A DNA stretch of 64,000 nt from assembly GCF_009495755.1 (NCBI RefSeq), contig NZ_WIBJ01000028.1, positions 21,588-85,587 on the forward strand, in the 5' to 3' direction. Source of the DNA: Flavobacterium sp. LMO8. Lineage in GTDB: Bacteria > Bacteroidota > Bacteroidia > Flavobacteriales > Flavobacteriaceae. Below the pieces are notes generated by a model, which saw only the letters and a list, made by a program, of their open reading frames with translations, made no database searches and was not told the origin of the DNA. Within the stretch, counting starts at the first letter, position 1, and every line of letters begins with the position of its first letter. Shown one piece after another: positions 38,591-38,711 of the stretch. A program made the position numbers and the translations under genes.

Positions 38591-38609
38591 ACTATCGATT
38601 GTTTTCTAT

Positions 38610-38661
38610 CCCTGATTGGAGTGATAGCTCCCGATTCATCGGGACTATAACGGAAAGCAGG
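38610..38661. repeat. Structured intergenic repeat element (nested hairpin)
   Basis: CCTG (38611-38614) pairs with CAGG (38658-38661). GTGATAG (38621-38627) pairs with CTATAAC (38645-38651) with one mismatch. CCCGAT (38630-38635) pairs perfectly with ATCGGG (38638-38643) around a 2-nt centre. The arms CCCTGATTGGAG and CGGAAAGCAGG resemble a dispersed element that I recall from several Flavobacterium genomes. No ORF is present. Confidence 0.7.
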
Positions 38662-38711
38662 AATCCAACATTAAACAAAACCCTAACGTTTGGTTTCAAA
38701 ATAAGACTATT

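Follow-up and report, generated by a model that had tools for sequence, protein, structure and literature searches.

Flavo-1 hairpins of flavobacteria: a longer unit, signs of mobility and a base-composition halo on one strand

Introduction

In the stretch of 64 000 nucleotides from Flavobacterium sp. LMO8 that we analyzed (hereafter, the window), a nested hairpin lies between the genes for a putative lipoprotein and a ChaN-like protein, and it raises the question of whether such a structure is an RNA or a DNA element. The initial annotation described a 52-bp unit whose arms look conserved and whose hairpin core looks variable, and suggested a small non-autonomous element or an RNA structure. 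We found that the hairpin belongs to Flavo-1, a family described in 2010 and classed as an ‘sRNA’, but still an orphan. Accordingly, the family itself was already known; what is new here is a composition halo on one strand around its copies and a redrawn unit, and these features, together with signs of mobility, make Flavo-1 more interesting than its database entry. If Flavo-1 is a DNA element, its annotations as an RNA gene mislead.

Results and discussion

The hairpin in the window is a copy of Flavo-1

A covariance search matched the hairpin to Rfam Flavo-1 (RF01705) over the full model at 44.3 bits. Because this score exceeds the curated gathering cut-off of 42 bits, the identity of the hairpin is settled; the consensus secondary structure and the covariation of the family were also found. 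The three stems first described (CCTG/CAGG, GTGATAG/CTATAAC with one mismatch and CCCGAT/ATCGGG) are all present at the positions given for them (Table 1); the mismatch in P1b is G·A, and the core stem folds as TCCCGA/TCGGGA (38629–38634/38639–38644) with a 4-nt loop. The initial annotation did not recognize that the family had already been catalogued (RF01705, Weinberg et al. 2010), and it missed a 3΄ tail and a closing helix, P0. Its 52-bp unit is too short, since the conserved tail and an empty site at another locus place the element at about 38607–38697. One pair of P0 is broken in the window copy (ATC against GTT), and the orthologs keep AAC/GTT.

Taken alone, the fold is modestly unusual. 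For positions 38605–38668, it was equalled by 4 of 200 shuffles on the + strand (z = –2.30) and by 8 of 200 on the – strand (z = –2.08), and the copy in the window is ordinary and unremarkable by itself.

Table 1. Features of the Flavo-1 locus in the window (window positions)
Feature	Position	Strand	Basis or remark
Whole element, redefined, from 5΄ T through 3΄ GTTTC	38607–38697 (about)	+	Conserved tail end in copies; empty-allele edges at another locus; ortholog intergenic regions
Match to Rfam Flavo-1 (RF01705), model 1–76/76	38604–38668	+	44.3 bits
P0 closing helix, 5΄ strand, ATC in place of the AAC of orthologs, which breaks one pair	38608–38610	+	
P0 closing helix, 3΄ strand, GTT	38693–38695	+	
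P1a stem, 5΄ strand, CCTG	38611–38614	+	Fold, covariation
P1a stem, 3΄ strand, CAGG	38658–38661	+	Fold, covariation
Conserved internal region, 5΄ side: A·G mismatch, T-A pair, covarying X (T), loop GGA	38615–38620	+	
Conserved internal region, 3΄ side: loop GGA, Y (A), A, G	38652–38657	+	
P1b stem, 5΄ strand, GTGATAG	38621–38627	+	Fold
P1b stem, 3΄ strand, CTATAAC	38645–38651	+	Fold
Variable core hairpin, TCCCGA-TTCA-TCGGGA	38629–38644	+	Fold; core turnover at another locus
3΄ tail, long type, mostly beyond the Rfam model	38662–38697	+	Tails of other copies
Flanking gene, putative lipoprotein, 290 aa	37718–38590	–	Start codon towards element; name from initial annotation
Flanking gene, ChaN-like, 283 aa	38712–39563	–	Stop codon towards element; name from initial annotation

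Flavo-1 is dispersed and its copy number varies widely

Further copies in the same genome, on which the first proposal had been made to depend, are present: 17 Flavo-1 matches were found at E ≤ 0.001, of which 15 lie above the cut-off. The exact 12-base arm occurs only once in this genome because the arms differ between copies, and with this single match it was dropped as a genome-wide probe in favor of the covariance model. Among 40 genomes (the own genome, 24 of the same genus and 15 of the same order), 26 contained a match, and no match was found in 14 control genomes. In a sample of the phylum searched with stricter filters, 44 of 296 genomes had one. The initial statement that similar arms occur in other Flavobacterium genomes is right, as Flavo-1 is scattered through Flavobacterium-like genomes. 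Within the genus, the number of copies ranges from zero (G018 and G020) to at least 88 (G004), with 44 matches in G011, 20 in G016, 14 in G025 and 12 in G012, the high counts being lower bounds, as no more than 89 candidates per genome were scored. In the single-contig genome G010, 17 of 59 copies fall within open frames that were called only roughly, and we take these frames to be mostly spurious. At L360 (467–639), two matches lie approximately 40 bp apart in opposite orientations.

The Flavo-1 unit extends past the Rfam model

The copies assembled for comparison numbered 137, of which the own genome supplied 17, relatives 21, G010 59 and a group of twelve genomes 40. We analyzed 135 of them, leaving out L240 (a duplicate of L031) and L203 (an incomplete match). 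Many of the copies from outside G010 lean to the consensus because they were drawn from best-scoring matches, as were most of the 40 from the twelve genomes, and the letters GAT and AGC are constant by construction because the parse was anchored on both. The pair X-Y, which follows GAT, was Watson-Crick in 134 of 135 copies, with four pair types, and the largest value among 1000 shuffles was 70; the pair Z-Z΄ (CCZG/CZ΄GG) was Watson-Crick in 130 of 135, again with four types (largest shuffle, 60). Two pairs of P1b were formed in 131 and 121 of the 135 copies (largest shuffles, 107 and 79, respectively). Base-pair covariation, whose absence would have refuted the initial proposal, is thus strong in the lower stem of Flavo-1, and the conserved arms and variable core that had been suspected from one copy recur in the family.

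The + strand looks like the folding strand, because both an excess of G-T and better core folding are found on it. Over the five counted pairs, G-T outnumbered A-C on the + strand by 15 to 2, although this excess may partly reflect selection, given that the covariance model used to pick the matches favors G-U; among 132 copies, the folding energy of the core was lower on the + strand in 92 and on the – strand in 29. Within the folded cores, G-U pairs were even (59 versus 57). The cores of L003 and L035 contain TTTCGACTTCGCTCAACTTGACA and similar sequences, presumably another dispersed flavobacterial repeat, as if one repeat had entered another.

Beyond the Rfam model, the unit comprises a 3΄ tail and the closing helix P0. 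Copies of the main type have such a tail. AGC directly precedes the lower stem in 119 copies; of these, 114 have GCTNC in the tail, at an offset of 4–6 in 91 copies and of 27–33 in 23, and the remaining five have GCT with other letters after it. A 5΄ triplet AAC goes with GTT in the tail, as seen in L012 and in five orthologs of the window locus (three in G012, G203 and G255, and two more distant ones in G083 and G013; G396 was left out of this count, being identical to G203 over that stretch). When C or T was accepted in the tail, the combinations were AGC-GCT in 113 copies, AAC-GTT in one copy and the five orthologs, AGC-GTT in one and AAC-GCT in none, and five copies with AGC had no detected tail end. 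Another 13 copies make up a second type, whose lower stem is reversed to GGG/CCC or to a variant; in 11 of them, GCGTN pairs with NACGC in the tail. The closing helix is supported by these base-pair exchanges (AGC/GCT, AAC/GTT and GCGTN/NACGC). We also considered a pairing of GAAG in the 5΄ arm with the tail end GCTTC, which exhibited no covariation by eye, and AGC/GCT was preferred. With the unit redrawn (tail, closing helix and second type), search models can be improved and the putative mover can be sought with a defined substrate.

The second type consists of L008 (1501–1588) and 12 copies in G010 (for example, L187, L228 and L239), with a longer closing helix, GCGTKA...TMACGC; several of these copies have a GACCC/GGGTC hairpin within the tail. 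A third form of the tail, near ACACGAGCGAAGCGAACTGACGAAGTAAATAGCTCC, is common to several species (L312, L309, L321, L328 and L033).

Presence and absence at orthologous loci

A search of 398 genomes of the genus for the window locus gave a match in 187, and both genes could be read in 27 of the best 30 of these 187. The element was found in seven of the 27 (the own genome, G012, G203, G396, G255, G083 and G013), and no recognizable element was seen by eye in the other 20, in 10 of which the gap between the genes is ≤30 bp. When 20 window loci, six of them element-bearing, were scanned with cmscan, five of the six scored above the cut-off and none of the other 14 did; the sixth, in G012, scored 34.4 bits, below the cut-off.

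A clean empty site was obtained at L005 only, the five other aligned loci being less clean. At L005, G255 has the gene pair without the element, and the own genome (G000), G012, G203 and G396 have it; the insert adjoins the stop codon, its final letters are GCTTC and its edges are sharp. No target-site duplication was evident at this one clean empty site, which might also have arisen by a precise deletion in G255. The copy of G396 at L005 keeps the outer arms but differs in the core and the X-Y pair, indicating that the core turns over in place. In the alignments of L014, L018 and L009, the differences are larger than the element alone; the relatives compared at L010 and L012 lack the hairpin but keep the tail. 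At L018, where G000 and G396 carry Flavo-1, a different small sequence, AGTTCAGAATGACAAA, is found in G012, G203 and G255 (L170, L171 and L173).

DNA element or functional RNA

Of the two readings offered at the outset, the evidence leans to the DNA element. Flavo-1 is probably a short (roughly 80–180 bp), non-autonomous, dispersed DNA hairpin element that folds on its + strand, is associated with a composition halo and appears to have spread by insertion. Its parts are an AGC·GCT closing helix, a CCNG·CNGG stem, a GA-type internal loop, a fast-evolving palindromic core and a tail; copies would be inserted, probably by way of a folded single strand, which may be handled by an enzyme encoded elsewhere. 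We prefer this reading because the published strandedness is mixed, the directions of neighboring genes in G010 are mixed and no replication-strand bias was found.

That Flavo-1 is instead a functional RNA (a small RNA or a 5΄ regulatory element), as implied by the Rfam type ‘Gene; sRNA’, we consider unlikely. The strong covariation and the fold preference for the + strand described above are what such an RNA would exhibit, but a folded DNA strand accounts for the same covariation. In Weinberg et al. (2010; PMC2864571), Flavo-1 is rated ‘probably’ an RNA and ‘probably not’ cis-regulatory. According to the transcriptome study of F. psychrophilum (PMC9723704), several 5΄ transcribed regions coincide with Flavo-1 matches; however, the same study indicates that matches are apparently sense or antisense alike and that many lie outside transcribed regions. 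In G010, the directions of the neighboring genes relative to the 59 copies were ‘– –’ for 30, ‘+ +’ for 13, ‘– +’ for 11 and ‘+ –’ for 5. This mixture, with half of the copies antisense on both sides, argues against an RNA; the antisense excess is also unexpected for a purely random DNA element. Replication strand is unsupported as a cause of the orientation in this genome: when 20 regions were sampled and the replichores assigned manually from them, 23 copies were oriented with replication and 27 against it, and 9 could not be assigned. Moreover, a range of zero to at least 88 copies in one genus poorly fits a single regulatory role.

Candidate movers and known systems

Compared with the Rfam family (Weinberg et al. 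2010), the copies described here agree in score above the cut-off, arms, nested stems and lineage. The Rfam entry, however, comprises 76 positions and is classed as an sRNA, whereas we observed a tail with a closing helix, a second type and the behavior of a dispersed DNA element.

As a DNA element, Flavo-1 could be a repetitive extragenic palindromic (REP) sequence moved by a RAYT/Y1 (HUH) transposase, a reading to which we assign little probability. Like REP/BIME sequences, Flavo-1 is a short, intergenic palindrome with many copies, the number of which varies by species; it also has a conserved foot, and a Y1 match was found in 22 of 29 genomes, with two Y1-domain proteins, one of 197 aa, in the own genome. 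Against this, the other seven of the 29 genomes lack a Y1 match, and these include the copy-rich G004, G011 and G016 as well as G025 and G012; neither Y1 gene of the own genome has a Flavo-1 match nearby. Flavo-1 further differs from REP elements in its conserved internal loop, covarying arms and rapidly changing core. Y1/RAYT was accordingly rejected as the mover for want of a consistent association with the copies, failing in G004, G011 and G016. The 197-aa RAYT-like Y1 protein is the one at C27:206780–207004 (L049) of the own genome. A reverse transcriptase (an RT-mobilized or DGR-like retroelement) was rejected as well, since its presence does not track the copies: RVT_1 matches were found in 11 of 17 genomes, including four in G020, which has no copies, and none was found in the copy-bearing G013, G001, G000 and G012.

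Flavo-1 also resembles MITEs in being short and non-autonomous and in its inverted-repeat architecture and presence/absence differences, but it has no visible target-site duplication at the one clean empty site. With integron attC sites it might share, by analogy only, a folded single strand with a conserved lower stem and a variable terminal stem. In the open-licence literature on REP and other repeats, we found nothing on Flavo-1.

Least probable is a transcription terminator or mRNA 3΄-end stabilizer that has spread for such use: 30 of 52 distances to a gene 3΄ end in G010 are ≤35 bp (genes being called crudely, as uncurated longest open frames) and some long tails are terminator-like on the – strand (L010: AAGCCCATTCGTTTGGGCTTTTTTT), but in many cores, whichever strand is read, a T-run comes before the stem and an A-run after it, opposite to the layout of an intrinsic terminator, copies also lie near gene 5΄ ends (66 distances in G010), and the relatives at L010 and L012 have a tail without a hairpin.

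A composition halo on one strand around the copies

We compared the G content of the two strands at third codon positions of genes within 400 bp of each copy. In G010, the strand richer in G locally was the + strand of the copy at 55 of the 59 loci (sign-flip test, P = 5 × 10–5, the floor of the test). Among 19 copies from other species this was the case at 15 (P = 0.006). The halo was weak in the own genome, where 11 of 17 loci agreed (P = 0.035).

The shift decreased with distance. In G010, genes <300 bp from a copy were shifted by +0.188 relative to the region (23/27) and those at 300–1500 bp by +0.111 (15/21), and the 254 genes further out gave –0.040 to +0.001 per bin. The corresponding shifts were +0.242 (27/28) and +0.114 (15/22) in G013, followed by 0.010, –0.002 and –0.106, and +0.137 (15/20) and +0.096 (12/18) in G004, followed by –0.004, –0.067 and –0.032. 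Slightly negative values at a distance are in part to be expected, as the shifted genes themselves enter the regional reference. No comparable peak was observed around two control sets, 64 terminator-like hairpins and 297 random intergenic points.

Because pooled figures mix genomes in unequal shares, near and far values are given per genome. Within 600 bp, third-position G/(A+G) on the + strand in sense and antisense genes was 0.403 and 0.435 in G010 (far, 0.290 and 0.245), 0.330 and 0.352 in G013 (far, 0.205 and 0.242) and 0.270 and 0.316 in G004 (far, 0.218 and 0.228), although downstream sense genes of G004 exhibited no rise in G. Near the copies of these genomes, C/(C+T) was unchanged or up to 0.055 lower, and G/(A+G) at first and second codon positions changed by only –0.03 to +0.07. 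This concentration at third positions is what would remain of a mutational bias after selection on the proteins. Thus, in three copy-rich genomes (G010, G013 and G004), the halo consists of more G and less A on the + strand of the element over approximately ±1.5 kb, and as an association it is well supported.

The enrichment was stronger after C or T (per-genome odds ratios of 2.52, 2.05 and 1.63) than after A or G (1.61, 1.34 and 1.18). Mutations of the mismatch-repair type have the context 5΄-NAC; this context was not seen. A Chi-like motif was likewise rejected as the source of the G excess, as no single k-mer dominates.

Origin of the halo

As an effect of the element, the halo is suggestive, and the cross-species tests were mixed. 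Tentatively, we propose that Flavo-1, as a mobile single-strand hairpin, may nucleate strand-specific mutagenesis over approximately 1–1.5 kb on both sides, with A → G changes on the + strand, preferably after a pyrimidine, and so reshape the codon usage of its neighbors where copies are abundant. Recurrent strand-specific handling of DNA at the hairpin could produce such changes, whether by exposing a single strand, by deamination or by error-prone resynthesis. Were the element its cause, the halo would amount to a mutation bias that is local and directed by sequence, and we found no earlier report of such a bias in the open-licence literature.

Alternatively, the element may not be the cause, and copies may insert or survive in a preferred orientation where one strand is already G-rich, which we regard as possible though rather doubtful. 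One locus of G010, followed through 50 genomes, bears on both explanations: the skew of the downstream gene was 0.113 in the 21 genomes with the element and –0.036 in the 15 without it (P = 0.009), and the upstream gene exhibited no clear difference between full and empty alleles (P = 0.30). The 14 intermediate alleles at this locus (decayed or with other inserts) had a downstream skew of 0.129, matching that of the element-bearing genomes, which favors a pre-existing skew. In the 15 nearest full/empty pairs on the tree, the downstream gene followed the expected direction in 11 (P = 0.03) and the upstream gene in 8 (P = 0.39).

Skew also varies naturally from gene to gene, with a residual standard deviation of 0.16 versus 0.11 expected from sampling, as a pre-existing skew would require. 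However, the natural skew in 223 distant genes of G010 trades G against C, whereas genes flanking a copy gain G if sense and C if antisense while the other base hardly changes, and total GC3 rises from 0.265 to 0.325/0.345. The lack of a replichore bias in G010 also argues against a pre-existing skew. At the window locus, + strand G/(A+G) of the downstream ChaN gene was 0.268–0.296 in five close species with the element versus 0.178–0.254 in the four nearest without it, which again points away from a pre-existing skew, although the contrast pooled over all loci was small (0.304 full versus 0.280 empty) and the lipoprotein gene went in the reverse direction (0.195 full versus 0.248 empty).
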